DNA from: a virus
IMG/VR virus record: IMGVR_UViG_3300048586_000914
Span: 1 to 45,455 of that record
Length of the DNA stretch: 45,455 nucleotides
Direction: 5' to 3' (one strand)
The notes below the pieces were generated by a model. The model ran no database searches. It was not told the origin of the DNA and was given only the letters and a program-made list of their open reading frames with translations. The stretch's first letter is position 1; each line of letters begins with the position of its first letter. Shown one piece after another: positions 12,598-45,075 of this stretch. Made by a program: the position numbers and the translations under genes.

Positions 12598-12631
12598 CGC
12601 CCCGGTCCTGACAGGCCGGGGCGTTCGCTTT
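12598..12631 (+). terminator. intrinsic terminator of the replication operon
   Basis: An 8-bp GC stem (CGCCCCGG at 12598-12605 with CCGGGGCG at 12616-12623), extended inward by CCT/AGG, is followed on the plus strand by TTCGCTTT. It lies between the convergent dNMP kinase and metallophosphoesterase genes. On the minus strand the stem has no T-run, so it acts mainly on rightward transcription. The same TTCGCTTT tail follows the terminator at 33771-33796. Confidence 0.75.
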
Positions 12632-13820
12632 AGAACCAGACCGTGAACCGGTCGGTCTGTCCGTCCTGGGGATGGTGAAGGAACGCCTCAACCGCCTGCC
12701 GCCCGAGATACCCGTTGCGGTCGTGCCAGCCGTCAGGCGCGGACGGGCTGCGGACGTATTCGACCATCACGTTGTCGCCTTCCATCGCCCCGGCACCGGC
12801 CTGCATCACCGTCATGGCGGTGTGGTCCTTTTCCCGCATCATCGACCGGACCCCGAGCGCCTTCCTGATCTTGTGATGGTAATGGTGGACATACCAGTAG
12901 AGGTGCCGCGCATCGCTCATGTGCGGGCGGGCTTCGACAAGCATGATCTGCCCGAGGTCGGACTCCTTGGCACCGTCGCCGTGGGTGAAGCCCATGACGC
13001 TGTTGCCGAACCGGACGTATTTGCGATGCCGTTCGCTGACCGCATAGTCGCTCGCGGTCACGTTGGGATGACCACGGAACCACGCCTGAATGGTCTGTGC
13101 GATGGCAAAGCCCAAGACCCAATCGTGATTGGACGGGTTGAACAGGATGGTGACGTTCAGCCTCATTTCCAGCGCCATACCGACCACTCGGATATAGGCC
13201 CGCTGCGCCACCCGGTAGATCGTAAAGATCGACCCATCGGTGTCCTGGGGCGTGCCCGAGGTCGTCTTGCGGAACGGGCTGTCAATGTGGGCGATGTCGT
13301 TGCCGATCACCAAGACCACCGCCGTCGCCCCGTTGCGCTGCGCCTTTTCCAGCAGCTTGCGGCAGCCTTCGACCATGCGATGCTCTGCGATGTCGGCGTC
13401 ATAGCGGTATCCCGTCTCTGACGCGACCGCCAGCTTGCCGATGTGAACGTCAGCCGGGTCCAGCATCAAGAGGCTGCCCGCCTCGTTGTCGAAACGCGGC
13501 GGCAGACCCTTGGGCAGATCGTCCGTCATGCTGGCGACGGTCGCCCTGATGTGGTCGAGGAACGCCGGGAATTTGGTGTCGGTCGGTTTCAAGAGGACCG
13601 AAAATTCGGTCGGCTTGCCGTCCTTGGTCTTGGCCCACGTCATCACCGGCACCATGTCCGTGCCCGCCGCGTCCATGCTGTCCGCGATTGCCGGGTCCAG
13701 TTCAAGGCGATGGCGCAGGGTTGTGCGGGCAATGCCGCTCGCCCTGACTGCCGCCGCGACCGACCCGTGCAGGGCGACGAGCGCCTTCGCTTCCTCGTGC
13801 AACTCGCGGTTCTTACCCAT
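12630..13820 (-). CDS. HTH-metallophosphoesterase fusion protein
   Basis: A 396-aa protein, last in the late operon. Residues 1-50 form a helix-turn-helix (AVRASGIARTTLRHRLELD). The rest is a calcineurin-like metallophosphoesterase with DPADVHIGKL (metal-binding D-x-H), VIGNDIAHID, NPSNHDW (N-H-D) and THGDG, in the order expected for a two-metal site. Relatives occur in many phages and may act as phosphodiesterases or nucleases. The HTH suggests DNA or RNA targeting. Its place behind the tail-tip gene is unusual and its role in the virion or the cell is not known. The ATG at 13820 overlaps the tip gene by 8 bases. Confidence 0.75.
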   Translation of the reverse strand: MGKNRELHEEAKALVALHGSVAAAVRASGIARTTLRHRLELDPAIADSMDAAGTDMVPVMTWAKTKDGKPTEFSVLLKPTDTKFPAFLDHIRATVASMTDDLPKGLPPRFDNEAGSLLMLDPADVHIGKLAVASETGYRYDADIAEHRMVEGCRKLLEKAQRNGATAVVLVIGNDIAHIDSPFRKTTSGTPQDTDGSIFTIYRVAQRAYIRVVGMALEMRLNVTILFNPSNHDWVLGFAIAQTIQAWFRGHPNVTASDYAVSERHRKYVRFGNSVMGFTHGDGAKESDLGQIMLVEARPHMSDARHLYWYVHHYHHKIRKALGVRSMMREKDHTAMTVMQAGAGAMEGDNVMVEYVRSPSAPDGWHDRNGYLGRQAVEAFLHHPQDGQTDRFTVWF

Positions 13821-16800
13821 TGGCCGGTGCCCCTCTGCCGTAAAGGTTGCTGATCTGGTAGATCGTCCACCCGACCGATGCCTGGCCCGACCCAAAGTCT
13901 GCGACCTGATTTGCCAGTGTATAGGAAACAGAGTTACCACCCACTACGGATAGCGTTCGCCCGCCCGTGATCACCACGTCATAGCGTTCCGATGTCTCGT
14001 TGAGCGGCACGTCATCATAGCCCCAATCGTCACCGCCAAAGCGCGTGCGGCGCGTCCACGACAGGGTGATGTCGCCCCCGGCCTCTTTGACCTGGGTCAG
14101 ATGGACCGGCGCGTAGGGTCGCAGCGCCACGCCGCGAGGCGTCACGTCCACGTCCCGATAACGCCCGTCTGACGGGTCGATACCGATCGGTCCCACACGC
14201 AACCCCATGACCGTGTTCATTAGGGCCGACGACCCCGCGAGCGTTGACCACCGAGTCGGGTCGAAGGCGATGATCCGGCTGCCCGCAGGCGTGGGGCTGC
14301 CCATGAAACCCTCTGTCCCGAGCGACCCGCGCAAGAGCGTCCGCAGCGTATAGGTGCCGTCGAGGTTCAGGGTCGCGGTGCGGTATTGCAGGATTTCCCA
14401 ATCGCCCGAGGGCGTCAGGACCGCGAGGGTGTTCGCCCCGTTCAGCACGGCCAGTTCCGACGCGCTGACAAGCGTGCTGGCCGGGTTGAACAGACGCACG
14501 GTGAGGTCGTTGCCTCGATCCCACACGCCGGTCATGCCGGTCGGCAGATCGTTGACCGTGACGCCCACCTTGGCGGGCACGTCGATCCGCAGGTTCAGCC
14601 GGTTGCCGCCATCGTCGTCGTCCTCATAGATATTCACACCACCCGGCCACGGGTTTTGCGTTGCCACCACGCGGGGCGACCAGAGGGCAGGGCTTGTCTC
14701 GTCGGCCAGAGGAATGTCGGCAAACACCATGAGCGGACTTCCCGGCGCGGTCGGGATCGTCGCCTTGGCGACCGCCTCGGGGAAATAGTTGGGCTTGTAG
14801 ATCGCCGCCGAATACCCGACGCCTTCGATGTCAAGCTGATCGCCGGTCACGATCCGTTCGACCCGGTATTTCCGCGTCACCCCGTCGATGGTGAGCGGGA
14901 TCGTGTCGCCCGGTTGCACCCGCAGGAAGTTGAGCGGCAGGCTGAATTTGACCCCGTTCTTCGCAATCCACCGCTCTTGCGTCAGGGTGTCCGCGAGCGC
15001 CTTGGCGGTGCCGGTCTGCATCACCGACATGGACGAAAACTCGTTGACCCGCTGCGAATACCCGGTGACGGTGTGACCATCGACCGATGCCGACGCATAG
15101 TCGCGGAAGGCGTCGAGATAGGACACCTTGGTCCGGTCGGGCAGATCGGTATCCTGCACCCGCGACTTTTCGTAATCGTCGCCGCCATCGGCACGGATCA
15201 GATCGTCCAGATCGACCGACACCGTGTCGGACGTGTAGCACATGACGAACCGGAACACGTCGCCGTCCTCGAATACGTCAAACAGGTAGGCGGTCATCAG
15301 GTTTTCGAGGATGGCGCGCGAGGTCATCACCTCGAATATCCCAAAGCCTTCGACCTGCACGCCCGAGTCCCGCAGGCTTGTCACGTCAATGTCGGCGTCG
15401 GTGAAGCCCGCCCGGTGCATGATCAGCCGCACGAGGCGGTCCAGCGTCAGGCTGTTGACGCGCCCGGTGATCCAGTGACCCAGGAACCAGTTGTCGCCGT
15501 CCGACCAGACATCGGTGAGCGCGGGGAATGACGGATAGGGGCGTGCGTCCCATGTCCACACGAACATATTGGCGGGATCGACAAAGCCGTCATCGCCCCA
15601 ATACTTCAACATCGCTTCAAGATAGAGGCGTTGCACCGCGTCGTTCCGCAGCCCCGACGAGAAATAGGGAAAGAACGACTCGGTCGATTTGGGGTCATAG
15701 AACACGTTCGGCTGGTTCGCGCCCTTGTCGAGTGCGGGACAGCCAAATTCAGTGAACCAGATCGGTTTCGTCGGATGGTTCGCAATCGACCACGACCTGA
15801 TGTCCTTTTGCCGATAGATCGCGTCGGTGATCGGCGTTTGCACCCGGTCCTCGCGGTCCTCGAAATCGAGATAATAGTAATCCCAATACTCGCCGCCCTC
15901 GATCCCTGCCATAAACTCGTCAATGTTATAAATCTCGTCGCCGTCCCGCCAGTCGGTCAACGGCAGGTAATTGTCGATCCCGACGAAATCAGCGGATGCC
16001 CACACCGCCGACAGGACCGCGCCCTTGTATTCCGACCAGTCGGCGGCATAGCTGACCTTGACGCCTGCGGGCAGGATCGACCGGACATCGGCAATCAGAT
16101 CGACCAGCTTTGTGCCCCAGGACGCATAGGTGTTCGTCAGGCCGACCATTTCGGTGCCGACGAGGAAGGCGTCACCGGACACCAGAATGTCGGCCATCAG
16201 GCGGGCGTAGTGCAGGATCATCCGGCGCAGGGTCCATTCGGTCGGCCCCGAGTAGGGCACCACCTCGCCGTTCCACGCGCCGAAATGCGCCGGGGTCGCG
16301 GTGCCCACGAGGTTCGCGCCGTTGCCCTCGATCCGCCCGCGCCACGGGAAGCCCTCACTGTCCATCAGGATAAACGGATAGAACACCGCCCGCATCCCGC
16401 GCGCCTTGATGTCCTGCATCGTCTGCCGCACCGACAGATCGGACGGCGTGCCGCCATAGATCGGGTTGCCGAACGTGTCGGCGGGCACCACGTCTGCCGT
16501 CGCCCGCGTGCGGTCGCTCACACGCCACTGGACCGGTTCGGTGACGGCGGTTGATGTCTCAACCTTGGGCTTCACCGTGCAGACCGTGGCGTCGATGCTG
16601 GACCCGAACCACGCGACCACGAGCGACACCGAATCGACGTTCGGTGCCTCGTATTCCAGCACGTCGAGAGACTTGACGACATTGACCGTGCCATCGGGCG
16701 TGTGAATGTTGACCGGCGTCGAGTTGCCGTCGCCGTCCTCTTTCGTGACCACTTCCGTCGCCAGGGCAAACTCGCCGCTCGCGGGGATCATGCAAACCGA

Positions 16801-28201: not shown

Positions 28202-28743
28202 TATCTGAAACCGATCATCAGCGTGTTGTTGGTTTTGCGCCGCCCGGTAATCGGGTCAGCCTCGCGTCCGAGTTCCGCGAGATAGTATTCGCGCCAGTCG
28301 GTCAGTTCCTTGACGGACATTTTGGTGATCGACCGCGACTTGATGGTGTAGGACTCAACGTCCTGTTCGGCGCGGCCCGAGAGGATCGACTCGATCTTGT
28401 CCACCATCAGGCGGGCGTGCGAACGCCGGTCGGCGTCATTCGAGAAACAGGCGACCGACATCGTGCGCAGGACGCGGGACTCGTCGTCGGCCAAGCGGAT
28501 GACCACGAGGTCGGCGGTGTTCCGACCGTGGCGCATGTCCTGGGTGACGGTGCCCGAGGCGGTGAATGTCCAGACGCCATCGACCGACGCCCCGGCGATT
28601 TCGCGGGTCGTGCCGCCCGAGGCGAAAACGTATTTGAGGCTGAACAAGCTGGCGTCATATTCGTCGGGGATCGTCCACGCGACGAAATGGCCGATCACGA
28701 TGCTGACCGGTTCGCCTTCAATCGGTTCAAAAGGATCAGCCAT
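28201..28743 (-). CDS. gpW-like head connector protein with N-terminal extension
   Basis: A 180-aa protein between terminase and portal, the lambda W position. The C-terminal 65 residues fit the gpW pattern (DVESYTIKSRSITKMSVKELTDWREYYLAEL). The N-terminal 110 residues form an extra beta-rich domain (VSIVIGHFVAWTIPDEYD, VWTFTASGTVTQDM), which gpW (68 aa) lacks. The connector stabilises packaged DNA before FII and the tail attach. The start at 28743 is chosen because the frame above it is shadow sequence, and it overlaps the terminase end. Confidence 0.65.
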   Translation of the reverse strand: MADPFEPIEGEPVSIVIGHFVAWTIPDEYDASLFSLKYVFASGGTTREIAGASVDGVWTFTASGTVTQDMRHGRNTADLVVIRLADDESRVLRTMSVACFSNDADRRSHARLMVDKIESILSGRAEQDVESYTIKSRSITKMSVKELTDWREYYLAELGREADPITGRRKTNNTLMIGFR

Positions 28744-30556
28744 TTTTCCACCCGTTGACCCAATCGGTGCCCTTGCGCGGTGCCGGTTTCGCGGGCTTGG
28801 CCTTGGGCATGACCTTTTCGAGTTCACGCTTGGCGTATTCACGCATGGATGCGCGCCGTTGTGCGTTTACATCGACCGACAGCATTTCAAACGCCGCAGT
28901 AGCATAGACCCGGTTATCGAATGGTTCATTGCGCGGACGGATTTTGTGCCAAACCAGTTTCTTGAAGCCCTTGACAAAGGTCGTGCGCAATTCCTCTGCG
29001 GTCAGGCCCCGGAAATAGTCATCGCCATAGCTGGCCGGAAAGGCGCAATATCCCGCCTCGTCTGGACCTGCCGCGAGGCGCGCGACGACCAATTCCTTGA
29101 TCGTGTCCACCCCGAGCGGGAAAACCTGGGTGCCGTCGAGGTTGTTTTTCGATGGCTTGCCGACCATCGGCTTGCCGGTGCCGCCGATACCCTTGATCGG
29201 GACGACGCGGGACATCGACCGGCAGAATTTATAGACCGATTGGGTATAGTGACCGCCCGAGTCCATGCACGTCATCCGGGGCGAGATTTCCCCGAACAGA
29301 GGGTGCATGAACGACTGGTTCAGGTAGGTGCGCAGGGCAGCCCACGGTTCCGGCGTCGAGAGGTCGCCATAGATCGTGTGATATTCAATCGACCATGTGC
29401 GATGGTCGTTGCCCCACCCGAGGGTTTCAATCTCGAAACGGTCGTCCTGAACGTCCACGCCTCGGGTCAGGATGGTCACGGCCTCGGGCACCGGGGTCGC
29501 GTAGTCCTCGCGCTGCGCCAGCAGATCGGACCATTCGGTGCGCTTGCCCGCGTCCTGCCACACCTCGCCCAAGAACGTGTTGACCCACGTTTTCATCAAC
29601 TCGGGGTCGCCCTTGGCGTCGAGGAAGTCGCGCACGCCATCGGCCAGAGGCGCGAACCGACTGTAAAGCTGCGACAGGTGATAGGACAGGTTGCCGTTGA
29701 ATGGCTTTTGCGCGACCCAATGACCGGCGCGCACCGCCTCGATCCGCATCAGGTCGTCCCAATGCTCACCGCAATGCTCGCACTCGTAAACTGCCGTCTC
29801 GGGGTCGTTGTCGGTCCATTTGACTTGCGACCATTTCAAGACCTGCAACGCGCCGCACGCGGGGCAGGGGCACCACCTCTGCCGCATGTCGCCGCGCTCA
29901 TATTCGACCATGATCCGGCTGGTGTTCGCGTTCCCCGGCGTCGAGACGAACACCAGCACGCGGTTCCAGTAGGTCGTGGTCCGCTTGACGGCCAGGTTGA
30001 TCGGGTCGCCTTCCGTCCCGGCGCTGCGCTCAAACCGGTCCACCTCGTCGGCCAGCAGGACGCGGACGGGTCGGGACGCCAGACCTGTCGGCGCGTTCGC
30101 CCCCACGAGCGACAGCACGCCACCGGGGAATTTCTTGCTGCGGATCGTGTTGCCGCTGTCCCGCGACTTGGCGTCCTTGACCAGATTGCGCAGGACCGGC
30201 GTGTCCCGCAGCATCGGCGCGAGCCGTTCCTTGCTGAACATTTCCGACGACTCGATGGTCGGACTGACGTGCAGGATGGGGCAGGGGTCGCGGTGCATGA
30301 AATACCCGACCACGTTTTCGACAAAGGACGACTTGCCGACCTGCGCCGATGTCATCAGCGTGACGCGGCGCACCCCCGGCTTGCCGATCATGTCCATCGG
30401 TTCCCGCAGGTATTCCACCATGTCGGTGCGCCACCGACCGGGCGATGCGGACGACTCTGCGGACAGACGGCGGTATTCGTCAGACCATTCGGAAACGGTC
30501 TGATCTGGTGGCGGTGCAAGAACCGAAAGAACGGCCCTGATCAGCCGTTCGGACAT
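28736..30556 (-). CDS. terminase large subunit (lambda gpA-like)
   Basis: A 606-aa lambda gpA-type terminase. The ATPase domain opens with MTSAQVGKSSFVENVVGY (Walker A-like, QVGKS) and has ILHVSPTIESS, a Walker B in VRVLLADEVDRF, and FVSTPG as coupling motif. A zinc finger follows (CPCPACGALQ, then CEHCGEHWDD). The nuclease domain starts at TRGVDVQDDRFEIE, with acidic residues in MDSGGH and a late D. The family makes staggered cuts at cos, so this phage probably has cohesive ends. The start overlaps the o-spanin gene by 16 bases. Confidence 0.94.
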   Translation of the reverse strand: MSERLIRAVLSVLAPPPDQTVSEWSDEYRRLSAESSASPGRWRTDMVEYLREPMDMIGKPGVRRVTLMTSAQVGKSSFVENVVGYFMHRDPCPILHVSPTIESSEMFSKERLAPMLRDTPVLRNLVKDAKSRDSGNTIRSKKFPGGVLSLVGANAPTGLASRPVRVLLADEVDRFERSAGTEGDPINLAVKRTTTYWNRVLVFVSTPGNANTSRIMVEYERGDMRQRWCPCPACGALQVLKWSQVKWTDNDPETAVYECEHCGEHWDDLMRIEAVRAGHWVAQKPFNGNLSYHLSQLYSRFAPLADGVRDFLDAKGDPELMKTWVNTFLGEVWQDAGKRTEWSDLLAQREDYATPVPEAVTILTRGVDVQDDRFEIETLGWGNDHRTWSIEYHTIYGDLSTPEPWAALRTYLNQSFMHPLFGEISPRMTCMDSGGHYTQSVYKFCRSMSRVVPIKGIGGTGKPMVGKPSKNNLDGTQVFPLGVDTIKELVVARLAAGPDEAGYCAFPASYGDDYFRGLTAEELRTTFVKGFKKLVWHKIRPRNEPFDNRVYATAAFEMLSVDVNAQRRASMREYAKRELEKVMPKAKPAKPAPRKGTDWVNGWKNG

Positions 30557-31784: not shown

Positions 31785-32093
31785 TTATTTGTCCTCGTCA
31801 TCGACCCCGAGGCGCTTGCGCAGAAATGCCGACATGAATTTCTCGTTGGCGAATAGCGCGGTCGCAGCGTCGAGAAAGATCAGACCGAACGCCATCACGC
31901 CAACAGCGGCAAGAGCCTCACCCAATCCAAGATAAAGAGCGACATCGGACGACAGGCCAAACCCGAGTGTGGCAGACGCGGCAGTTTTGCCGACGCGGCT
32001 GACAATGCTTTCCGCCTTGGGCGTCCGAAAGAAGAACCAGACCGACATGCCCGCAATGACGGCCCAATACTCCGGTGATTTATTGTCCATCAT
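31785..32093 (-). CDS. holin candidate
   Basis: A 102-aa membrane protein with two to three hydrophobic segments (WAVIAGMSVWFFF, ASATLGFGLSSDVALYLGL, LAAVGVMAFGLIFLDAATALF) and a charged C-terminus (RKRLGVDDEDK). It lies between terS and the endolysin and resembles alphaproteobacterial phage holins. Several starts cluster here (TTG 32102, ATG 32099, 32093, 32090). AAGG lies nine bases before 32093, and the closely spaced starts recall dual-start holin/antiholin genes. The assignment rests on topology and position. Confidence 0.7.
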   Translation of the reverse strand: MMDNKSPEYWAVIAGMSVWFFFRTPKAESIVSRVGKTAASATLGFGLSSDVALYLGLGEALAAVGVMAFGLIFLDAATALFANEKFMSAFLRKRLGVDDEDK

Positions 32094-32607
32094 CGTCATC
32101 AACCTTGTCCCGCCAATCGTCGGCCAATTCGGTCAAGGCATCGTGGACACCCTGTTTGAGTTCGGTCGTCACCACGTTCAGATCGGTCTGACGAGCGATG
32201 ATAGGTGCCAGCTTGGTCGGCAGTTGCAGCAAGCGCGTGCGGACCCGCATCAGTATGTCTTGCCACGCGGTTTCGACCGACGCGGCGTCCAGCAATTCGC
32301 CTTCCGCAACGCGGTTCTCGCGCTCAACCTTTTCGGCCTGCGCCGTCTTGAGGCGGGTTTCGGCGGTCATCCCCTGACCGTCACCGCCGTCGAGACGTGG
32401 CCGACCGACACGCTTGTTGCCACGCACCTCGATCAGCCATTTGCCGAACGCCCTGGCGGGATAGGACTTGTCAGGGTTGCGAGGTGGCGGGTTGTCTTGC
32501 TTGTCCCAAAGGATTAACGACTGGACACTGACACCGGCCAGGACCGCAGCCGCGTCCTGCGCCATGTCGAAGTCGCCGCCGATCACCTCGATACTTGCCC
32601 GTGCCAT
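32080..32607 (-). CDS. terminase small subunit (Nu1-like)
   Basis: A 175-aa Nu1/DUF1441-like small terminase. The N-terminus is a winged-HTH (FDMAQDAAAVLAGVSVQSLILWDKQDNPP, ARAFGKWLIEVRG), and residues 80-150 form the helical oligomerisation region (TRLKTAQAEKVERENRVAEGELL, AWQDILMRVRTRLLQLPTKLAP). It binds cosB and recruits the large subunit. In lambda-like phages the binding sites lie just upstream, which here is the repeat region from 32650 upward. It is the first gene of the late operon, has GAGGG before the ATG, and overlaps the holin-like start. Confidence 0.88.
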   Translation of the reverse strand: MARASIEVIGGDFDMAQDAAAVLAGVSVQSLILWDKQDNPPPRNPDKSYPARAFGKWLIEVRGNKRVGRPRLDGGDGQGMTAETRLKTAQAEKVERENRVAEGELLDAASVETAWQDILMRVRTRLLQLPTKLAPIIARQTDLNVVTTELKQGVHDALTELADDWRDKVDDDDGQ

Positions 32608-32660: not shown

Positions 32661-32765
32661 AACCGACAGAACGGTTGTTTTCAGGGAGTCAAGCGAAAAG
32701 GCCAGATAGCGGGATAGTCACGGTTCCGGGCGCCATTTTACCGAGTCAAGCGGTAATTTTACTGG
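32661..32765 (-). promoter_or_regulatory. candidate late-operon control region with dyads
   Basis: Upstream of terS there are two dyads: AACCG-N6-CGGTT at 32661-32676 and TTACCG-N7-CGGTAA at 32738-32756, the latter followed by TTTTACTGG to 32765. A minus-strand TTGACT lies near 32695-32690 but has no good -10. The words TTTTACCG and TAATTT(T)ACTGG recur together at 38093-38131 upstream of another transcription unit, which suggests one regulator for both. No start site can be fixed by eye. Confidence 0.4.
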
Positions 32766-32840
32766 ATTCCGGCCGATTTGGCTGAAAAAACCTCAAAATT
32801 TTTGTAGCTAGAAATCAAACGAGGTCGCGCGTTACCCCCG

Positions 32841-33219
32841 GCGCAATAATGTTGCACAGGACCCGTGATTCGCGCAAGATTCTTGCGTGCAACAATCGTT
32901 CGCCGCACGGTATGAGTCGCGCAATAATCGTTCGCGCAAGAATGTTGCGCACGATAGTTGCGTATGAACGCCGTCCAGCGCACCAATGTTGCGCGCAAGA
33001 TCATGTCGAGTCGGGGTATGAGTCGCGCAACAATCCTGCGCGCACGATAATTACCCGACCACGCAATAATCATGCGCGCACGATAGTTGCGCGGGATGAC
33101 CGGCAGACGACATGATCGGTCGCGCACGATAGTTGCGCCCCGTGAGCCTCGGGCGCACGATAGTTGCGCGCAAGAATGTTGCTCCTAAACGCAACTATCG
33201 TGCGTCAAAATAGTAGCGC
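32841..33219. repeat. cluster 1 of a 17-bp interrupted palindrome, GCGCA-N7-TGCGC
   Basis: About 17-18 units of the form GCGCA-N7-TGCGC, where N7 fits [A/C]NA[A/T][T/A]N[T/G]. Starts lie near 32841, 32872, 32887, 32903, 32919, 32934, 32947, 32978, 32993, 33025, 33040, 33061, 33076, 33122, 33153, 33168, 33189 and 33203. Most successive starts are 15-16 bp apart or a multiple of that, so neighbours overlap in TGCGCGCA. Spacers come in reverse-complement pairs (CGATAGT and ACTATCG). Four units are identical (GCGCACGATAGTTGCG). Arms are degenerate in some units, often on one side only. This looks like arrayed binding sites for a dimeric DNA-binding protein. Confidence 0.85.
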
Positions 33220-33272
33220 GACTCGTGGTCATGCGGGTCACGTTTCGCACCTTGATTCGCCCTTGGCGCGGG

Positions 33273-33349
33273 TCGAGGGTCGAGGGTCGAGGGTCGAGGG
33301 TCGAGGGTCGAGGGTCGAGGGTCGAGGGTCGAGGGTCGAGGGTCGAGGG
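33273..33349. repeat. 7-bp tandem repeat TCGAGGG, 11 perfect copies
   Basis: Eleven exact copies of TCGAGGG run without interruption, and related copies reappear at 33790-33830 beyond the next array. Each unit supplies a GGG run separated by TCGA, so the plus strand matches the general G-quadruplex pattern (four GGG tracts with 4-base loops) many times over. The unit is not a multiple of three and no gene is expected. Confidence 0.95.
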
Positions 33350-33350
33350 T

Positions 33351-33416
33351 CGCACCTGGTGGCGCACCTCGCACCTGGTGACGGGTCGCACCTGGTGGCG
33401 CACCTCGCACCTGGTG
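33351..33416. repeat. four copies of CGCACCTGGTG
   Basis: CGCACCTGGTG begins at 33351, 33370, 33387 and 33406, that is, at 19, 17 and 19-bp steps. The block GGCGCACCT precedes the second and fourth copies. It links the 7-bp array to the 11/12-bp array and probably arose by the same slippage or unequal recombination. Confidence 0.9.
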
Positions 33417-33420
33417 GCGC

Positions 33421-33762
33421 AGGCGAGGCGCAGGCGAGGCGCAGGGACGGGCGCAGGCGAGGCGCAGGGACGGGCGCAGGGACGGGCGCTGGGACGGGCG
33501 CAGGCGAGGCGCTGGCGAGGCGCAGGCGAGGCGCAGGGACGGGCGCAGGCGAGGCGCAGGGACGGGCGCAGGGACGGGCGCAGGGACGGGCGCAGGCGAG
33601 GCGCAGGCGAGGCGCAGGACGTGGCGCAGGCGAGGCGCAGGCGAGGCGCAGGCGAGGCGCAGGCGAGGCGCAGGGACGGGCGCAGGCGAGGCGCAGGCGA
33701 GGCGCAGGGACGGGCGCAGGCGAGGCGCAGGGACGGGCGCAGGCGAGGCGCAGGCGAGGCGC
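33421..33762. repeat. 342-bp array of 30 units of two types (11 and 12 bp)
   Basis: The stretch parses completely into 30 units: type A, AGGCGAGGCGC (11 bp, 18 units), and type B, AGGGACGGGCGC (12 bp, 12 units); 18x11 plus 12x12 is exactly 342. The order is AABABBBAAABABBBAABAAAABAABABAA. Single variants occur at unit 7 (TGGGAC), unit 9 (TGGCGAG) and unit 18 (AGGACGTGGCGC). The strand is strongly G-rich. There are no unique spacers, so it is not a CRISPR. Its variable order suggests a fast-changing minisatellite. Confidence 0.95.
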
Positions 33763-33796
33763 AAAGCGAAACCCGCCACGGGTTAGCGTGGCGGGT
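33763..33796 (-). terminator. intrinsic terminator of the small-gene operon
   Basis: A perfect 10-bp stem (ACCCGCCACG at 33771-33780 with CGTGGCGGGT at 33787-33796) with a 6-base loop is followed on the minus strand by TTTCGCTTT. It lies 36 bases past the last small ORF and directly before the repeat array, so leftward transcription should stop before entering the repeats. Confidence 0.8.
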
Positions 33797-33831: not shown

Positions 33832-33930
33832 TTAGAACATCAAGCCGATTGCCACACCTAGCGCCATGCCGCGCGCTGTCGGGTATCGCATCAGGAACAG
33901 AGCCGCGCCAATGGCGAGTCCGAGTCTCAT
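33832..33930 (-). CDS. 32-aa hydrophobic peptide
   Basis: A very short ORF whose ATG overlaps the stop of the 93-aa gene before it (ATGA). The peptide is mostly hydrophobic (LGLAIGAALFLM, then GMALGVAIGLMF) with two or three arginines and could span the membrane once or twice. It is the last cistron before the terminator. Stop-start coupling and composition support it, but its size makes it tentative. Confidence 0.45.
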   Translation of the reverse strand: MRLGLAIGAALFLMRYPTARGMALGVAIGLMF

Positions 33931-34208
33931 GCTATCGCACCTCGCCGGATTTGCAGCGCATCAGAGGGCGTGCGCTTGATGACGCGCGGGTCATATCCAA
34001 TCCGCGCCAATTCCGTCCCAAGGTCGCGCCATTCGTCAGGCGTGGCGGGTCGGGTCGATTGGATGACGTGTTGAGGGTCGCACGATCCGTGTTGACCAAT
34101 GGTCTGATAACACGCGCACGAATAGGGGTCATTGGTTCCGGGTTGATCAATCAACACCGCCACGACATCGCCTTGCGGATAGACCCGCATCAAAACCCGG
34201 TCAGACAT
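33927..34208 (-). CDS. hypothetical protein
   Basis: A 93-aa protein in a leftward operon of small unknown genes. It starts with a strand SDRVLMRVYPQGDVVAVLID, has a cysteine pair (SCACYQ) plus another Cys in HGSCDPQHV, and ends in a helical DEWRDLGTELARIGYD and a basic tail. The start at 34208 is preferred because it overlaps its upstream neighbour by 8 bases while the longer frame is shadow sequence. No family recognised. Confidence 0.55.
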   Translation of the reverse strand: MSDRVLMRVYPQGDVVAVLIDQPGTNDPYSCACYQTIGQHGSCDPQHVIQSTRPATPDEWRDLGTELARIGYDPRVIKRTPSDALQIRRGAIA

Positions 34209-34488
34209 TTGCAATTGCCTCTCTCTTTGCATCGTCGCGGGATTTGGCGCGAACATATGCGACTCCATCGTGGCCGAAACCTTTGACCCATACTGCCCAA
34301 ACCGGCCCAAGGTGACTCGGCGGTAATCCCCAATACGCGCCACCAGAGTCATATTCGTAGGCGGGACCGGCGACAGCCAATTCCGCAAGGGTCACGTTTT
34401 CCGGGTCAAGCATCAGACGATCAGACACGCGACCCATTGGCGCACCATATCTGCAATTCACTTTCGGGAACGGATTGAAACGCGCCAT
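34201..34488 (-). CDS. hypothetical protein
   Basis: A 95-aa protein of unknown function. It has an N-terminal ARFNPFPKVNCRYGAPMGR with a leucine-rich helix (NVTLAELAVAG) and a compact YDSGGAYWGLP to WAVWVKGF segment, ending in a charged helix (RAKSRDDAKREAIANV). It adjoins its upstream neighbour by one base at 34488 and overlaps the downstream start. Nothing points to a particular function. Confidence 0.55.
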   Translation of the reverse strand: MARFNPFPKVNCRYGAPMGRVSDRLMLDPENVTLAELAVAGPAYEYDSGGAYWGLPPSHLGPVWAVWVKGFGHDGVAYVRAKSRDDAKREAIANV

Positions 34489-34712
34489 CAGACCGACTCC
34501 TTGCGATATTCGACAGCATCAAGGCGATTTGAGGACTCGAGACGGAATGCAACGCATTTGCGCTCGATTCCGCCCTCAAATCCCATTGCGTGCGCCACAA
34601 GGGCAAATGCTGACCACGCGCCACGCCTCGTGGTGAAATGGCGCGTAACAGGTTCAGCAATGCACAAGGCGGCGTTGTATTTCCAGACCGTGACGGAATA
34701 GCGGGTTTTCAT
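34488..34712 (-). CDS. hypothetical protein
   Basis: A 74-aa basic protein starting MKTRYSVTVWKYN, with a helix AWSAFALVAHAMGF and an end LESSNRLDAVEYRKESV. The pattern of two short strands, a helix and a further strand resembles small nucleic-acid-binding or dimeric phage proteins, but I recognise no family. Its ATG lies 2 bases downstream of the stop of the preceding gene. Confidence 0.55.
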   Translation of the reverse strand: MKTRYSVTVWKYNAALCIAEPVTRHFTTRRGAWSAFALVAHAMGFEGGIERKCVAFRLESSNRLDAVEYRKESV

Positions 34713-34714
34713 TG

Positions 34715-34969
34715 TCACACCCAAACCGGATTGAAGCGATAGCAATTGAGGGTCACGCACTTGGAATTGTGGCGCGGGCGATTGCTCGCAAACCAATTGA
34801 ACCGACCCGCGCGCGTGGTGCATTCCGGGTCACGATATAGCGCCACGTCGAACCGACCTGCGAAACCGTATTTGATGGACTCGGGGTCCGTGGTAGGTTC
34901 TTTGCGCGCATAGAGCGTCAGCAATGGCGCGGGCGCAGGATCGTCAAAGCGATACAGAGCAAAGGTCAT
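34715..34969 (-). CDS. hypothetical protein
   Basis: An 84-aa protein, TFALYRFDDPAPAPLLTLYARKE at the start and aromatic, Asn- and Arg-rich later (FNWFASNRPRHNSKC, NCYRFNPVW). The Trp/Tyr-rich, basic character is shared with its operon neighbours and may indicate nucleic-acid binding. Its ATG overlaps the stop of the preceding cistron (ATGA). Function unknown. Confidence 0.55.
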   Translation of the reverse strand: MTFALYRFDDPAPAPLLTLYARKEPTTDPESIKYGFAGRFDVALYRDPECTTRAGRFNWFASNRPRHNSKCVTLNCYRFNPVWV

Positions 34970-35187
34970 TGCACGTCCTCGCCCTTGGCAATGGTGCGTG
35001 CGAGGTATGCGTGGAAATACCTTGCGCGCGACCCGTTAGCATTCTTTGGCGCGCGATACTTGACCGAGTCGGCAGCCTGTATCACGCATTCGACCTGATA
35101 GGAGTTGAGGGCGTGGAAATCACGATCCACGGGAATGCAAAAGGTCGAAACCATCGCCCGTGCTTCCCAATATGTGAGGCGCGCCAT
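34966..35187 (-). CDS. hypothetical protein
   Basis: A 73-aa protein with an N-terminal ARLTYWEARAMVSTF, a middle DFHALNSYQVECVIQAADSVKY and a basic region (NANGSRARYFHAYLARTIAKG). The ATG at 35187 comes 2 bases after the upstream stop; a TTG six bases earlier is less likely. The spacing suggests reinitiation of translation. Function unknown. Confidence 0.5.
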   Translation of the reverse strand: MARLTYWEARAMVSTFCIPVDRDFHALNSYQVECVIQAADSVKYRAPKNANGSRARYFHAYLARTIAKGEDVQ

Positions 35188-35189
35188 GA

Positions 35190-35582
35190 TCAATAGACCA
35201 CGAAAAGCGCGCGGTCATCTTTGGCGGCAAACACCTTGCAAGGTGCGCCTCGCGGGTCGCAATTAAATTCGACCCGGTAAAAGTCGCGCCAATACTCGCC
35301 ATAGCATTTCGCCATTCCCGCAAGAAACCGCGCGCGGTTCTTTTCCATGATCCGTTCCGCGCGCGCCTCGTCCTTATCAGTCCATTCCGCCATGACGCGG
35401 CGCAATTTCGGGTCGTAACGTTCCACGCCATTGCAGCGCATCATATTGATGCGGTCCAGTTGGAAAGCGGCAAGGCGCAATTCCTGCGCGTTGCCAAAGA
35501 TATTCGCCACGGGCGACTCGGTAATGTCAGCCGCACGGAACATGGATTCAAGCAAAGCGTGGCGCGTGATGTGTTCAGACAT
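35190..35582 (-). CDS. hypothetical protein
   Basis: A 130-aa protein, the largest of this operon. The first 90 residues are helical (HALLESMFRAADI, AAFQLDRINMMR, KDEARAERIMEKNRARFLAGM), and the last 40 look like a beta hairpin (FYRVEFNCDPRGAPCKVFAAKDDRALFVV). Two Cys in the hairpin could form a bridge or bind metal. It overlaps the preceding gene by 8 bases. No family recognised. Confidence 0.55.
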   Translation of the reverse strand: MSEHITRHALLESMFRAADITESPVANIFGNAQELRLAAFQLDRINMMRCNGVERYDPKLRRVMAEWTDKDEARAERIMEKNRARFLAGMAKCYGEYWRDFYRVEFNCDPRGAPCKVFAAKDDRALFVVY

Positions 35583-35898
35583 TGGAAGACTCCACCATAT
35601 CGGAAATCGACGGGAACATATTGAGCGGGAAGCAACGGGAACGGCACCGCGACCCGGAATAGCGGGTCACGACAAGAATCCCCGAAAAGGTCACGCCATT
35701 GGAAGAGTCGCCCGACTCTTCGCACTCGAGTCCCGACATCGCTTCCCGCAACGTGATACCGCGCGACCCGCGACCACCATTGACGCACCGCGCCTGATAG
35801 CGGGTCACGTCAAACGCCACGTCCCGAGTCCATTCCTCGCCAATCGGCCACCACAAAGCGCCGTGCGCTGTCGCGTGGATCGTGAGTTGAGTTGTCAT
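35575..35898 (-). CDS. hypothetical protein, first gene of the small-gene operon
   Basis: A 107-aa beta-rich protein (TQLTIHATAHGALWWPIGEEWTRDVAFDVTRYQARC, GITLREAM, VTFSGILVVTRYSG) with a basic C-terminal part. AAGGTGA precedes the ATG by about six bases. It is the first cistron of a seven- to eight-gene leftward operon bounded by palindrome cluster 2 upstream and a terminator plus repeats downstream. The flanking AT-rich 35920-35970 region may hold its promoter. Function unknown; accessory anti-host or regulatory genes are often found in such sets. Confidence 0.55.
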   Translation of the reverse strand: MTTQLTIHATAHGALWWPIGEEWTRDVAFDVTRYQARCVNGGRGSRGITLREAMSGLECEESGDSSNGVTFSGILVVTRYSGSRCRSRCFPLNMFPSISDMVESSNV

Positions 35899-36341
35899 CT
35901 GTCGTCACCTTTTCGCGTGATGTGTGACCACAAATTACAAAATAACGGAAGGTCAGTAAAGGACTCAAAGTAACGTCAAAACTACTAGCGCGCAACAATC
36001 TTGCGCAAGCTGGCAACTATCTTGCGCGCAAGAATAGGCCAGGAACACGCAACAATCTTGCGAGGTCGGGTAATTACCTTGCGCGCACGATTATTCCAGG
36101 TTCAGGTAAGATTGTTGCGCGCACGATTATTGCGCAGGTCGGCAATTTTATGACCGACAGTAAGTTGCGGGACTCACCCCGAGTCGCGCACGATTGTTGC
36201 GCGCAACATTGTGAGGCGAATCGGCCAGGCAGCGCAACAATCGTGCGCGCACGAAAATGACCGATTCGCGCAAGAATGTTGCGCGCCAGGGCTGATCAAA
36301 CTAACCCCTTGGGCACACCGGAAAAAACCCGGAAAAAACCG
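35899..36341. other. 443-bp non-coding region with palindrome cluster 2
   Basis: The region contains no gene. The right side of the small-gene operon (35899-35973) is AT-rich with possible promoter elements on the minus strand. From 35974 to 36284 it is filled by the 17-bp palindromes, and 36305-36341 holds two copies of CGGAAAAAACC. Confidence 0.7.
35974..36284. repeat. cluster 2 of the GCGCA-N7-TGCGC palindrome
   Basis: About 14 units with the same arms and N7 spacer rule as cluster 1, starting near 35974 (degenerate), 35990, 36011, 36026, 36047, 36068, 36083, 36104, 36119, 36140 (degenerate), 36186, 36201, 36232, 36247 and 36268. Best units are GCGCA-ACAATCT-TGCGC (35990), GCGCA-CGATTAT-TGCGC (36119), GCGCA-CGATTGT-TGCGC (36186), GCGCA-ACAATCG-TGCGC (36232) and GCGCA-AGAATGT-TGCGC (36268). 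The two clusters bracket the small-gene operon about 2.8 kb apart. Confidence 0.85.
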
Positions 36342-36385
36342 CTACATGACGGCGGAAAAAACCCCGGTAGCAGCGGAAAAAACCG
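36319..36385. repeat. four copies of CGGAAAAAACC
   Basis: CGG-A6-CC begins at 36319, 36330, 36353 and 36374. The first two lie downstream of the 158-aa gene and the last two inside its 3' end, where they encode repeated VFSA. On the minus strand they are T6 tracts between CGG/CCG arms, so they could aid termination or DNA bending. Confidence 0.75.
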
Positions 36386-36818
36386 TCGCGGCCTCGTGCA
36401 AGGGCAGGCGCTTGAGCGCCAAGAGGATCGCGTTGCGTTCGATGGCGATGCGACCGTTGAGGTATTCGATCATGTCACGCGACCGCGATGTCTCGATCCG
36501 GCGTTCCAACTCACTGATCGCCAGCTTGCGCAACAGGATATAATCGTTCGCGTCCTTGGCGGTCCTGATGGTCACGAGGTCGGTCAGACCCGGCACCAGA
36601 AAGTAGGTGTCCGCTATCCGCTTGACCGCCGACTGGTGGCGCGACGAGGTGGCGGTGAATGTGTCGGCGCTCACATACAGGACATCACCGTCCCACATGG
36701 CGACGACATCATCATACGAGGTCAGCACGCCGTCCTTGAAGCGCAGGGTGTTGCGACCGTTGGCGGCTGATGATGCTCTGCGCGTGCAGAAAAGAGCGAC
36801 AATATCGTGGTTGTTCAT
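36342..36818 (-). CDS. hypothetical protein
   Basis: A 158-aa protein of unknown function. N-terminal half: NHDIVALFCTRR, LRFKDGVLTSYDDVVAMWDGDVLYVSAD, ATSSRHQSAVKRIAD, a beta-rich region. C-terminal half: two helices (KDANDYILLRKLAISELERRIE and EYLNGRIAIERNAILLALKRLP), perhaps a helical hairpin. It lies 51 bases downstream of the gpZ-like gene and shares its transcription direction. The 3' end has two of the four CGGAAAAAACC repeats. It may belong to the early control region, but no DNA-binding motif is clear. Confidence 0.6.
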   Translation of the reverse strand: MNNHDIVALFCTRRASSAANGRNTLRFKDGVLTSYDDVVAMWDGDVLYVSADTFTATSSRHQSAVKRIADTYFLVPGLTDLVTIRTAKDANDYILLRKLAISELERRIETSRSRDMIEYLNGRIAIERNAILLALKRLPLHEAATVFSAATGVFSAVM

Positions 36819-39644: not shown

Positions 39645-39854
39645 GTGACAAGTGAGACGGAAAAGTTGAAGGCCGAGATTGCCAGACTCAAGACCCAATA
39701 CGTCAACGCCCGCCTCGCGGGATGGCTGGACGGATACCAGCATTGCGCCGACACGGCCAAGGCACTTGCCGCGAACGCCGACACGCCTCTGGTCGCTCGC
39801 CTACAGCATACCGCCGCGTCTCACCGTCACACGATCCACGGCCCGCGACATTAG
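39645..39854 (+). CDS. hypothetical coiled-coil protein
   Basis: A 69-aa protein with an N-terminal coiled coil (TSETEKLKAEIARLKTQYVNARLAGWLDGY) and a second helix (CADTAKALAANADT). A GGGAG sequence lies before the GTG start. It ends with a 4-base overlap with the convergent primase gene and no terminator is visible between them, so transcripts may run into each other. Unknown function. Confidence 0.55.
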   Translation: MTSETEKLKAEIARLKTQYVNARLAGWLDGYQHCADTAKALAANADTPLVARLQHTAASHRHTIHGPRH

Positions 39855-42052
39855 CGGACGATGTAGTGTTGGGCGCGGCAGTAATCGTCCACTGTCTCGC
39901 CCGGTGCGGACGGCAGCTTATAGAGGACGGGTCGTTTCCCGTCCTCTTGTTCAATGGGCTGCCAAGCGCGCTCAAACCGTCTGTATCCCATTGCTTCCAA
40001 TATCTTGCCGTGCTTGTTCCGACCGATGCGAATGCCACGGTCGCGCATCAGCCGGTCGAGCGCCCACGACGAAACCCATCCGCCCCGGAAGCCCACGGTG
40101 TTGTCCTCTGCCGCTTCAAGGATTTCTTGTTCCACGCCGCCAAGCGATTCACCGATGGACTCCTCTGTCGATGTCGTCGTGGGCGCGCGATGGCACGAGG
40201 TGGCCGGGTTGAGGTCGTCCGGTATCTGGTAATTCTTGAGGTAGTGGCCGACCGCAGAATAACCGCCATCCCGCAGCCAATCATAGAGGTCGGGGAAATA
40301 GCGCCCGGTCATCCCGTCCCGCACCAGATCGTCCGTTGATTGCTGCGCCGTGAAGAATATCGCATAGCGCCGATCATTGCGGGATTTCAGCACGGCATCC
40401 TTGTAATTGGTGCAGAACGCCCAATTCGCCAGATTGCGGATCAACCGCTGATCTGCGCCTTTGCGTTCGGCCTCAATCTCGATGTTCGTGATCATCGTTT
40501 TGAGGTCGTCCAGTATTTCCCGGCGACCGTTCATATGGATTTCTTCAACGAGGATAAACAGCTTGTTTTCGACCCATCCGTTGAATTGCCCGCCAAGCAA
40601 TTTGGCGCGCGGCTGGTGCGTGTATTGCCGACCGACAGCGTAGGACACGCACGACAACAGCGCCGTCTTGCCGTTGCCCTCGCACCCCTGCACGACCGGT
40701 GCCCACTGGAATTTGACGCCGGGATACTGGACGACCGCCGCCATGTAGGCCACGAGGATCGACCGGTCGCGCTCGTCGGGCAACAGCTTGCACATCAGAT
40801 CGAGGAACCGCGACACGTCGCCCTGGGTGATGTCCACATCGGGCGGCATGTAGGCGTTGACCGTGCCATCGTTCAGGATCAGGCCGAACGCCAGATCGGG
40901 GCGGAAACAGGTCGTGATCGCCTGCGGAAACCGGGTCGCCTTGTTTTGGGTCAGCGCCTTGAACGCATCGTCGGTCGGCTTGGTCCCGTCAGGCATCATC
41001 TGGAACATATGCCCGCCATAGGTGGCGTTGAATTGTTCGGGCTTGAGCATCCGCCCGTCAGGGATCAGCACGCGGTGAGCATCCGAGATATAGACGCATC
41101 CCCGAAAGTGTTCCTGCATTTCGGGCACCGTCAGATACACCTCGGGCACCCCGTCAGCGCCAGCTTGCGCCGCAGCCGCGACCGGGGCAGGGCGGTCATA
41201 GACGGTCTTGCAGAGGCGGGCGGCGTTCTGCACGGTGTCGCGCCGGTAATCCTCGCGGCGCTCATACTTGTCCCGCATCAGCGCCGACCGGCGAAACAGG
41301 CGGTCCATCCGGGGCATGTCCCGGCCCGTCCAGAACGCGAGGTGCGCCATCAGCGCCGCGTCGGCAGAGGACCGGTCGAAACCGCCCGACCCGTCGAACG
41401 CCGGATAGATGCGCGCCAGCTTGGCGGCGTCGGCATTCCAGAGGTCGGCGGCAGAGGCACGCATCCCGAACGCGGCACCGGCCCCGCCCGACCGCAGCAT
41501 CAGCGCCAGCAACGCCTCGTCATCCACCGGCCCCGTATAGCGCGGATCGACACCCTCGGGCAGATCGCCAAGGTGTTCACGCTGCGGCACCACCTTGAGA
41601 AGCGTATCGGTAAAGTCGCGGTCGATCTGGACGCCACCAATGGGTGCCCATCCGGTTCCGCCAAAGGCGACAAACCTCTGATCGGTGTAACACTCCAACC
41701 ACCCATCCCATTTGTTCCTTCTGTCCGCGAGGCGCGACGGGTCGCAGCGCCCGATGATGTGAAGGCCCGTGCCTGATTGGGACACCTCGCCCAATGCACC
41801 GGCAAAGCTGGTAAAGATCGCCACGGCCTCGGGCTTCCACGCGCCATCGACCGCGCACTTGTCCAGATCGAGGAAGAACAGCCCGTCCTCGCGCCTGATG
41901 TCGAACGCCACCGGCAGACCCGAGGCGACCGCCGTGGCGTAGTCGGTGTGATTGGCCGGATCGTGGGCATCGCAGATCGTGCCGTCCCGCAGGCATGGCA
42001 TCTTGCGACCGTCCACGAGACGCCAATTGAGGAACCGGGGCGGCAGGTTCAT
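39851..42052 (-). CDS. AEP primase-polymerase/SF3 helicase fusion
   Basis: A 733-aa replicative primase-helicase. The N-terminal bifunctional primase-polymerase domain has the metal-binding DLD in FFLDLDKC (about 61-64), the nucleotide-binding SGTGLH (about 93-98) and a following FVAFGGTGW. The C-terminal superfamily 3 helicase of the D5/DUF5906 type has Walker A GCEGNGKT (456-463), Walker B LFILVEEIHM (about 498-507) and a later NWAFCTNY sensor. A winged-helix-like end follows (WVSSWALDRLMRDRGIRIGRNKHGKILEAMGY). It would prime and unwind DNA for the family B polymerase. It is last in a minus operon that begins near the attachment site with luxI and fic. Confidence 0.92.
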   Translation of the reverse strand: MNLPPRFLNWRLVDGRKMPCLRDGTICDAHDPANHTDYATAVASGLPVAFDIRREDGLFFLDLDKCAVDGAWKPEAVAIFTSFAGALGEVSQSGTGLHIIGRCDPSRLADRRNKWDGWLECYTDQRFVAFGGTGWAPIGGVQIDRDFTDTLLKVVPQREHLGDLPEGVDPRYTGPVDDEALLALMLRSGGAGAAFGMRASAADLWNADAAKLARIYPAFDGSGGFDRSSADAALMAHLAFWTGRDMPRMDRLFRRSALMRDKYERREDYRRDTVQNAARLCKTVYDRPAPVAAAAQAGADGVPEVYLTVPEMQEHFRGCVYISDAHRVLIPDGRMLKPEQFNATYGGHMFQMMPDGTKPTDDAFKALTQNKATRFPQAITTCFRPDLAFGLILNDGTVNAYMPPDVDITQGDVSRFLDLMCKLLPDERDRSILVAYMAAVVQYPGVKFQWAPVVQGCEGNGKTALLSCVSYAVGRQYTHQPRAKLLGGQFNGWVENKLFILVEEIHMNGRREILDDLKTMITNIEIEAERKGADQRLIRNLANWAFCTNYKDAVLKSRNDRRYAIFFTAQQSTDDLVRDGMTGRYFPDLYDWLRDGGYSAVGHYLKNYQIPDDLNPATSCHRAPTTTSTEESIGESLGGVEQEILEAAEDNTVGFRGGWVSSWALDRLMRDRGIRIGRNKHGKILEAMGYRRFERAWQPIEQEDGKRPVLYKLPSAPGETVDDYCRAQHYIVR

Positions 42053-43349: not shown

Positions 43350-43979
43350 TCAATTCGTGTATGCGTTCTGGCCCATCGCCAGGGTCAGCCCGAGGTTGAC
43401 CACGCCATCGGCGCCATCGGCACCGGCTGGACCCGTGGCACCCGGCGCACCGTCAGCCCCGTCCGCGCCATCGGCACCGGCTGGACCCGTGGGACCGGCA
43501 ATCGCGGGGATCGTGACCGTCACCACCCCGCCCACGTTCGTGACGGTCACGCCCGTCCCGGTGAAGTCGAGTGTGGTCAGGGCGGTCGTCAGGGTCGTGC
43601 CCTCGTCCTTGACCGTGACCGACCCGCCGCCAGACGACAGGGACAGCGTGACCCATGCGGTGCCATCCCACGACACGAACGAACCAAGGGCGGCGTTCCA
43701 CCCAAGCCATCCGTTGCGCGGCGTGAAGAACACCCACCCGCCCGAGAGGCGCAGGGCGACCTTGTTCGTCTGCCCGGCCCACGCCCCGGTCGCGCCGGTC
43801 GGCACGATGTATTTGTCACCCTCTGCCGGTGATCCGGGCGGCGTGGTGATCGCGCCCGAAATGACATTGAGTTGCAACAGGGCGTCGAGGCGCATGAACG
43901 CCTCGTTGGCGGTGACGTGCTTTTGCGCCTGCGCCGCTTGCAAAAGGGTGATATTCGCCTGCGGGGTCGTGGTCATCAT
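43350..43979 (-). CDS. DUF2793 tail fibre protein with collagen-like repeats
   Basis: A 209-aa protein whose first 115 residues match DUF2793, common in alphaproteobacterial phages (LLQAAQAQKHVTANEAFMRLDALLQL, EGDKYIVPTGATGAWAGQ, NGWLGWNA, WDGTAWVTL). Residues 160-195 contain about ten collagen-like Gly-X-Y triplets (GPTGPAGADGADGADG, GAPGATGPAG), so the protein is likely a trimeric fibre. The last 15 residues are the tip. It lies downstream of fic with an ATGA overlap. Confidence 0.85.
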   Translation of the reverse strand: MMTTTPQANITLLQAAQAQKHVTANEAFMRLDALLQLNVISGAITTPPGSPAEGDKYIVPTGATGAWAGQTNKVALRLSGGWVFFTPRNGWLGWNAALGSFVSWDGTAWVTLSLSSGGGSVTVKDEGTTLTTALTTLDFTGTGVTVTNVGGVVTVTIPAIAGPTGPAGADGADGADGAPGATGPAGADGADGVVNLGLTLAMGQNAYTN

Positions 43980-44500
43980 TTCACCCTGAATTGCGCCTGC
44001 ACGTCATAATCACCGGACGTGTCGAAACGCTTAACCCTGCGGTCGTGCGCCTCAAGCGTCTGGTAATGAAAGCATTGCAGGAAACCCAATTCGCGGTGCG
44101 GTCGGTCGATCTGGCGTTCCATCATCCACAACCAGATCGCACGGCCAGATCGCCCATTGCCGTCCGTAAACGGATGCAGGTGTTCATAGGCACAATAGGC
44201 GTCGTGCGCGTCGATCATGCCGGTGACGATCCGCGCGTTCAGATCGGCAAGCGCCCGCCCGATCTGCGGCCCGCCTTCCGGTGCCATGTGCCGACCGACG
44301 CGGACGTTCAGGCCCGGTTCGGTGCGCAGGCTGTTCCCCGGCGCGACGGCACCGACGAACACCTTGAGCGGTTCGATCCCCACGTCACCGGCCAGGAACG
44401 TCGTGTGCGCTTGGTATTCGGTCTTGGATGGGTCGCGGTCGATCCCCTCGATCCGGTTCGATTCGATGATGAAATTGTAAAGCCACGTCTCGATCCTCAT
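43976..44500 (-). CDS. class II Fic domain protein (AMP-transferase)
   Basis: A 174-aa Fic protein. The active-site motif is HPFTDGNGRSGR (residues 109-120), a complete match to HxFx(D/E)GNGRxxR. The N-terminal helix has SNRIEG (residues 14-19), the (S/T)xxxE(G/N) inhibitory motif, so it is a class II, self-inhibited Fic. The flap strand region is HMAPEGGPQI (71-80). Such enzymes usually transfer AMP to a protein side chain. A short N-terminal arm suggests no extra targeting domain. It starts in an ATGA overlap with the AHL synthase and ends in ATGA with the DUF2793 gene, so luxI, fic and the fibre genes share a message. Its target is unknown; toxin, host-takeover or antidefence roles are possible. 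Confidence 0.92.
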   Translation of the reverse strand: MRIETWLYNFIIESNRIEGIDRDPSKTEYQAHTTFLAGDVGIEPLKVFVGAVAPGNSLRTEPGLNVRVGRHMAPEGGPQIGRALADLNARIVTGMIDAHDAYCAYEHLHPFTDGNGRSGRAIWLWMMERQIDRPHRELGFLQCFHYQTLEAHDRRVKRFDTSGDYDVQAQFRVK

Positions 44501-45075
44501 GCCGCAATCCCCCACTGGTCCGGTCTGATCCCGGCACGCTTCAACAACACCTCGCGCTGGTCATCCGAGTATTGCCACACCCCGACGCCAATCTCGCCGT
44601 CCGTCCCGGCGACGACAGGTTCCGACCCGATCAGGCGATAGACCCGCAGCATCGGCATGGCGAACACGCCGACGAAATGGGTCACGTCATGCTTGCGCAT
44701 CAGTTCCCCGCCGCCGAACATCAGGGCCGACGCGATGCGATGGCTGGACCCCGGCGCGAGACAGAACCGCGTGCATTCCCACATCGCCGGGTCGCGGAAC
44801 GGATGGTTCCCGACGAGGTGCATGAAATGCTCGTTGATCATCGTGCGACCGGTCGTCGGCAGGAACCGCGCCGACCCGCCGTGCAGCCCGTCAGGACTGC
44901 GCCAGATCACATAGATGGGGTCGAGGTCGTCATACTGGTCGCGCTCGCGGCCCTCGTCATCGACCGTCACCGGCCACCCGAGGCGGTCGCGGAATTGCTT
45001 GGTGCGGTCGCGGAACATCGAGTCCCGCAACTCGGGATGCTGGTCGAGGTCGTGCCCGTGCAGGTAGAGCAACAT
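44497..45075 (-). CDS. LuxI-family acyl-homoserine-lactone synthase
   Basis: A 192-aa autoinducer synthase of the LuxI family, which makes N-acyl-homoserine lactones from S-adenosylmethionine and acyl-ACP. Family invariants are present in order and spacing: R24, F28, W34, D46, D49, R70, F84, E100 and R103 (in the stretches RDRTKQFRDRLGWPV, YDDLDPIYVIW, RFLPTTGRTM, WECTRFC). The C-terminal half (FVGVFAMPMLRVYRLIG, GVGVWQY) is the usual acyl-chain pocket part. No luxR gene exists in the window. The gene is coupled to fic (ATGA) and abuts the gene before it (TGATG). It is near the prophage end, a site for cargo genes, and may give the lysogen a signal or help the phage sense related hosts. Confidence 0.93.
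   Translation of the reverse strand: MLLYLHGHDLDQHPELRDSMFRDRTKQFRDRLGWPVTVDDEGRERDQYDDLDPIYVIWRSPDGLHGGSARFLPTTGRTMINEHFMHLVGNHPFRDPAMWECTRFCLAPGSSHRIASALMFGGGELMRKHDVTHFVGVFAMPMLRVYRLIGSEPVVAGTDGEIGVGVWQYSDDQREVLLKRAGIRPDQWGIAA

Follow-up and report, generated by a model that had tools for sequence, protein, structure and literature searches.

The window, a 45,455-bp virus record from IMG/VR analysed over its whole length, represents a temperate phage of alphaproteobacteria. Its late operon is preceded by a dense array of a short interrupted palindrome, which raises the question of what protein would read this array and what process it would control. The integrase gene of the phage is located at positions 1–1530, and its structural genes are oriented leftward. 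The locus contains the following genes and arrays:

28736–30556, minus strand: terL, lambda GpA-type large terminase (phrog_15)
32080–32607, minus strand: terS, terminase small subunit, the first gene of the late operon (phrog_57)
32841–33205, no strand assigned: array 1, 16 units of a 17-bp palindrome, from a position-weight scan
33927–35898, minus strand: operon of small proteins with no assigned function, between the arrays
35990–36284, no strand assigned: array 2, 11 copies of the array 1 palindrome, from a position-weight scan

The earlier note on this DNA had counted 17–18 copies of the palindrome upstream of terS. The position-weight scan confirmed the array with a count of 16 units, and the proposed spacer rule, [A/C]NA[A/T][T/A]N[T/G], is obeyed with exceptions. 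Array 2, absent from the earlier note, is located upstream of the leftward small-gene operon and is considered the equal of array 1. The units of array 1 have the 17-bp consensus GCGCA[A/C][G/C]AT[T/A]NTTGCGC; individual units are 15–17 letters long and occur in mixed orientation in the arrays. The best-conserved bases, CGCAA and TTGCG, flank N-WWW-N and form the core CGCAA-N-WWW-N-TTGCG. Fifteen units of array 1 and ten of array 2 match the symmetric template GCGCAANWWWNTTGCGC in at least 12 of 15 positions, whereas 1000 dinucleotide shuffles gave a mean of 0.21 and a maximum of 3 matches, and the 44.7 kb of the window outside both arrays contains only four weak ones. The pattern GCGCA-N7-TGCGC is exact in six units of array 1 and occurs 11 times in the whole window (0.33 expected). 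All 15 occurrences of CGCANNATNNTTGCG in the window are inside the arrays, and its reversed control has none.

The units of array 1 follow one another at steps of 13, 15, 21, 31–32, and 46 bp. In 16 array-bearing sequences, the neighbour steps are 13 (14 cases), 15 (17), 21 (5), and 31–32 bp (13), and overlapping neighbours have GCGC in common. Among 95 distinct units, there are 138 deviations of one arm and a single compensated pair. Since the arms deviate singly and almost never in compensation, the units appear to be DNA half-sites read by a protein rather than an RNA stem or cruciform. An array of RNA hairpins was rejected for the same reason, together with an Rfam search that gave no match.

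The region between array 1 and terS is organized as follows:

32679–32695 and 32736–32752, no strand assigned: two 17-nt direct repeats between cosN and terS
32803–32814, minus strand: conserved block resembling TTTCTAGCGACA on the downstream side of cosN, with the sequence TTTCTAGCTACA in the window
32823–32836, minus strand: cosN-like block GGTAACGCGCGACC, the putative cohesive end, at which two contigs (L019 and L020) begin exactly
32841–32857, minus strand: array unit inside the cosQ–cosN spacer, ending 4 bp before GGTAACGCG
32858–32864, minus strand: cosQ-like heptamer GGGTCCT, also found near the right end of lambda

Judged by homology, the block at 32803–32864 is a lambda-type cosQ–cosN. 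The heptamer GGGTCCT, which we take to be cosQ, is followed in the window by 21 nt and GGTAACGCGCGACC. A set of 30 distinct sequences, collected as TerL relatives and by a pattern scan, contains the corresponding block upstream of terS, composed of a cosQ-like heptamer (GGGTCCT or AGGTACT, rarely AGGTTCT or GGGTCTT), 19–23 nt, GGTAACGCGCGACC, 8 nt, and TTTCTAGCGACAG. The lambda record ends with GGGTCCT and 23 nt, and begins with GGGCGGCGACCT. Like lambda, the window has a cosQ heptamer, a spacer of fixed length (21 nt; 23 nt in lambda), and a conserved, GC-rich cosN-like block beside terS; it differs in the array, which is positioned outside the cos set on the cosQ side and has no counterpart in lambda. 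The functions of cosQ, cosN, and cosB have been described (PMC4669245). The TerS-binding R sites of lambda are located in cosB, and cosB-like terminase sites were among the candidates named for the array. Array 1 begins within the cosQ–cosN spacer and extends away from terS, which starts at 32607. Its location beyond cosN, towards cosQ, and the presence of two other repeats between cosN and terS argue against array 1 being cosB. The 17-nt direct repeats themselves are, from their position, candidate TerS-binding sites of the cosB type. The array unit in the cosQ–cosN spacer ends 4 bp before GGTAAC in the window and in the related phages L012 and L013 alike. A different palindrome, ATGTTATAACAT, is present near cos in L127, L136, and L141 in only one to three copies, in L136 inside the cosQ–cosN spacer, and possibly represents another specificity.

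The array is widespread among uncultured phages. A scan that used the motif only and required two neighbouring units identified 49 stretches. Eighteen loci with P22-like TerL were found by the motif, with units 0.1–0.5 kb upstream of terS. A retrieval by the TerL protein alone added four loci (L259, L260, L263, and L265), and the array is present in each of these, the close relatives whose upstream sequence was long enough. In total, 22 P22-like loci have an array upstream of terS, four of them found without the use of the motif. The distant P22-like relative L269 has no array. In P22-like records of 44–47 kb, the array separates leftward genes from rightward late genes. Unit pairs are also found upstream of the terminase genes of HK97-like phages (L173, L198, and L160), and L013 has an array upstream of terS. 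The sites upstream of terS recur in three or more families of terminase, and the absence of the pattern from this locus in all related phages, which the earlier note would have held against its proposal, was not observed. The nearest relative of the window, G408, retains the flanking gene order and has no array, as is the case for most cos relatives; about 27 related cos sites contain neither an array nor a unit in the cosQ–cosN spacer. The strict exact motif occurs in 98 IMG/VR contigs in one copy each, which is the chance level. Cultured P22-like Rhizobium phages contain no units, and BLAST of the palindrome against cultured phages and plasmids gave weak, non-array matches only. A search with the TerS protein retrieved nothing.

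The units are not restricted to arrays. Within P22-like phage DNA totalling 368 kb, a set picked partly for arrays and not for unit-bearing promoters, 7 of 42 promoters of the form TTGAC[AG]-N16-18-TANNNT carry a unit in the spacer (starting 3–8 nt after the start of the −35 element), compared with 0.13 expected (p about 1e-10). The promoter of G393 reads TTGACA-CGCAATAATATTTCGCC-TATATT and that of G006 TTGACA-CGCGCAATAATCTTGCG-CATAGT, each with the unit in its spacer; L196 and the promoter of G396 (locus L309) were recovered again by a separate promoter scan. The gene downstream of the unit-bearing promoter encodes the major capsid protein in G006, G393, G396, G395, L165, and L263. The promoter scan found the same promoter form in integrated elements of 9–12 kb with integrase, AlpA, AAA_25, TerL, capsid, and portal genes, which, by their layout, resemble capsid-forming PICIs and are termed cf-PICI-like satellites here. 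In eight satellite contigs, as well as in L321, which is divergent, the promoter between the integrase gene and alpA has the unit in its −35/−10 spacer. The alpA promoter unit is kept in L321, a 62%-identical relative, whereas the 96%-identical relatives L318 and L319, the RepA of which is 96% identical to that of L304, have a different int–alpA upstream region without the unit; this suggests that the int–alpA control region is a swappable module. Sites thus overlap promoters above chance in the P22-like relatives and in the satellite alpA promoters, and not in the window itself, where neither array was found to contain a promoter with an embedded unit. The one overlap of TTGACG with a unit in the window is the following:

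33203–33208, minus strand: TTGACG, overlapped by the unit at the cos-distal end of array 1 in the manner of the capsid and alpA promoters elsewhere, but with no good −10 element

We propose that both clusters are probably operator arrays of one dimeric HTH-type transcription regulator, most likely a repressor of the late and small-gene operons. Repression is suggested because the spacer, 17 bp long and next to a near-consensus −35 element, is where repressors usually bind, and is filled by an odd-centred palindrome of the same length. The dimer would contact the CGCAA and TTGCG half-sites one helical turn apart around the AT-rich centre and, until its removal, would keep both the late (terminase and structural) operon and the small-gene operon silent. 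Filling of the arrays may be cooperative, at steps of 13, 15, and 31 bp. Upstream of terS, the arrays would serve for such cooperative filling, act as decoys, or stop readthrough from entering the late operon, and the unit inside cos might let the regulator influence cos cleavage or might have arrived there by spread of the repeat. The palindrome supports the earlier suggestion of a dimer-bound site; dimer binding, repression rather than activation, and cooperative filling are what we infer from the sequences. Arguing against the operator reading, the arrays exceed by far the length that control of a promoter requires, G408 and most cos relatives lack them, no DNA-binding protein shared by the carriers was found, the window arrays are without an embedded-unit promoter, and the unit inside cos would fit a packaging role too.

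Classical phage operators of the lambda OR type sit between the −35 and −10 elements. The unit is similar to them as a 17-bp odd-centred palindrome over the spacer of a sigma70 promoter, and differs in being present in 10–16 copies per array and in being common to unrelated phages and satellites. Stoperators of Cluster A mycobacteriophages (L5, Bxb1) are copies of one short repressor site, many per genome, some of which are promoter operators and most of which are not promoter-associated (PMC6550527). The window phage likewise has many copies of one short site. However, stoperators are asymmetric, monomer-bound, mostly in one orientation, and dispersed, whereas the units of the window are palindromes, point either way, and are crowded into two arrays at 13–15-bp steps; the remaining 44.7 kb has the four weak matches. 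Among the four candidates of the earlier note (cosB-like sites, origin iterons, a partition site, and stoperator-like repressor sites), repressor-type sites fit best because the unit occupies the −35/−10 spacer of capsid and alpA promoters, although true stoperators are unlike it. A described GCAA-N5-TTGC operator was not found in the literature searched.

The same observations bear on other explanations. The arrays could be mainly decoys that act as a titration timer: replication would add 15–27 sites per genome and titrate a scarce regulator, host-encoded or early, until the single-operator late promoters open. The dense, near-consensus, irregularly spaced units, the lack of a promoter inside the window arrays, the single units in late promoters of P22-like phages, and the lack of a regulator gene common to the carriers all agree with this. 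We nevertheless consider it unlikely as the main function, as a decoy could sit anywhere, and the proximity of the arrays to terS and cos in three families would remain unexplained. That proximity, together with the unit at the same distance from GGTAAC in the cosQ–cosN spacers of the window, L012, and L013, would instead suit a packaging element, in which the array extends cos on the cosQ side and a bound protein helps the terminase to stop or cut at the right end. Such a role is improbable, given the approximately 27 related cos sites without array or spacer unit, the units in capsid and alpA promoters far from packaging sites, and the arrays of P22-like phages, which, judged by their TerL relatives, package by the headful mechanism without cos.

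Binding of the units by the host regulator NtrX, which has a Fis-type DNA-binding domain, would enable the phage to read host physiology. NtrX sites are CAA-N3-5-TTG in Brucella and CAA-N2-5-TTG in Sinorhizobium, and binding over the transcription start represses (PMC9223101). By this definition, the unit contains an NtrX core, CAA-N5-TTG, in a 6-5-6 geometry with Fis-type spacing, and one alphaproteobacterial genome has a unit pair in an intergenic stretch. However, CGC flanks and an AT-rich centre are required in the phage unit, neither of which belongs to the published sites, and the motif proposed for Rhodobacter sphaeroides differs (GCA-N9-TGC; PMC7240162). There is also no clear host regulon: in 115 genomes, single full units number 79 and matches to the reversed control 30, and the majority of the inspected units are inside ORFs. 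We therefore regard NtrX as a very improbable binder. Two units within 30 bp occur in one of 385 alphaproteobacterial genomes, so the genome-wide scatter that the earlier note had named as grounds for doubt is not seen in this set. The least credible explanation, to which we assign hardly any probability, is an origin of replication or a partition site, with the units as iterons or a centromere. A short motif densely repeated in two clusters is what such a site would look like, but iterons are direct repeats in one orientation beside an initiator gene. Here, the units point both ways at variable spacing, primase and helicase genes are at least 3.5 kb away (primase at 39851–42052), and no initiator, ParA, or ParB was found among the proteins scanned near the arrays, which were part of the ORFs. 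Moreover, the phage encodes an integrase, and the same units occupy promoter spacers elsewhere; nothing positive was found for the iteron and partition candidates of the earlier note.

If the units are operators of a repressor, as we favour, its source has to be considered. The site is common to unrelated phages and satellites, but no regulator gene common to them was detected. For this reason, we slightly favour a regulator from the host, or from a helper or resident element, over one per phage; a fast-evolving phage protein may be the source instead. No DNA-binding protein common to the array-bearing phages was found among the carriers. Two proteins of the window were rejected as binders: the TetR-like ORF of 77 residues (3472–3705) is present in non-array relatives too, and the protein with HTH and metallophosphatase parts (12630–13940) occurs in several carriers, with its HTH part differing or absent. 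Only tentatively do we extend the operator reading to a single host- or mobile-element regulator that would be read through one 15-bp operator by cf-PICI-like satellites and by phages from three or more unrelated terminase families. The arrays at terS and cos would titrate it upon replication and so time late genes and packaging, and the satellite would wake simultaneously via its alpA operator. An operator common to unrelated phages and satellites would, if true, constitute a shared regulatory code among mobile elements of one bacterial group, and could explain the timing of late genes and packaging as well as the sensing of helper phages by satellites in Alphaproteobacteria. The 17-bp unit provides a concrete bait for finding the binding protein, and a large, mostly uncultured phage group gains a lambda-like cos signature.

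Other repeats flank the arrays. Approximately 500 bp of G-rich tandem repeats (33270–33763; GGGTCGA 12 times and GGCGCAGGCGA-type 30 times) are located right behind array 1, and L009 and L018 have other tandem repeats at the equivalent position. In six P22-like carriers (L259, L260, L263, L265, L056, and L202), the terS promoter is separated from the array by a conserved, G-rich block, GACCGGGGTGGGG. Repeated CGGAAAAAACCG-like elements are positioned upstream of array 2 (36318–36386); the small-gene operon is preceded by similar CGGTTTTTTCCGG repeats in L013 and by CGGATTTTTTCCGG repeats in G408, the closest relative, which has no array. In an alphaproteobacterial chromosome (L217, contig C71 of G069), a unit pair is located upstream of a gene resembling a complex I-associated subunit. 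The window phage also encodes an autoinducer synthase domain of the LuxI type (PF00765, E 5e-22) at 44497–45075 on the minus strand, adjoined by an ORF with a Fic/DOC domain (43976–44515).
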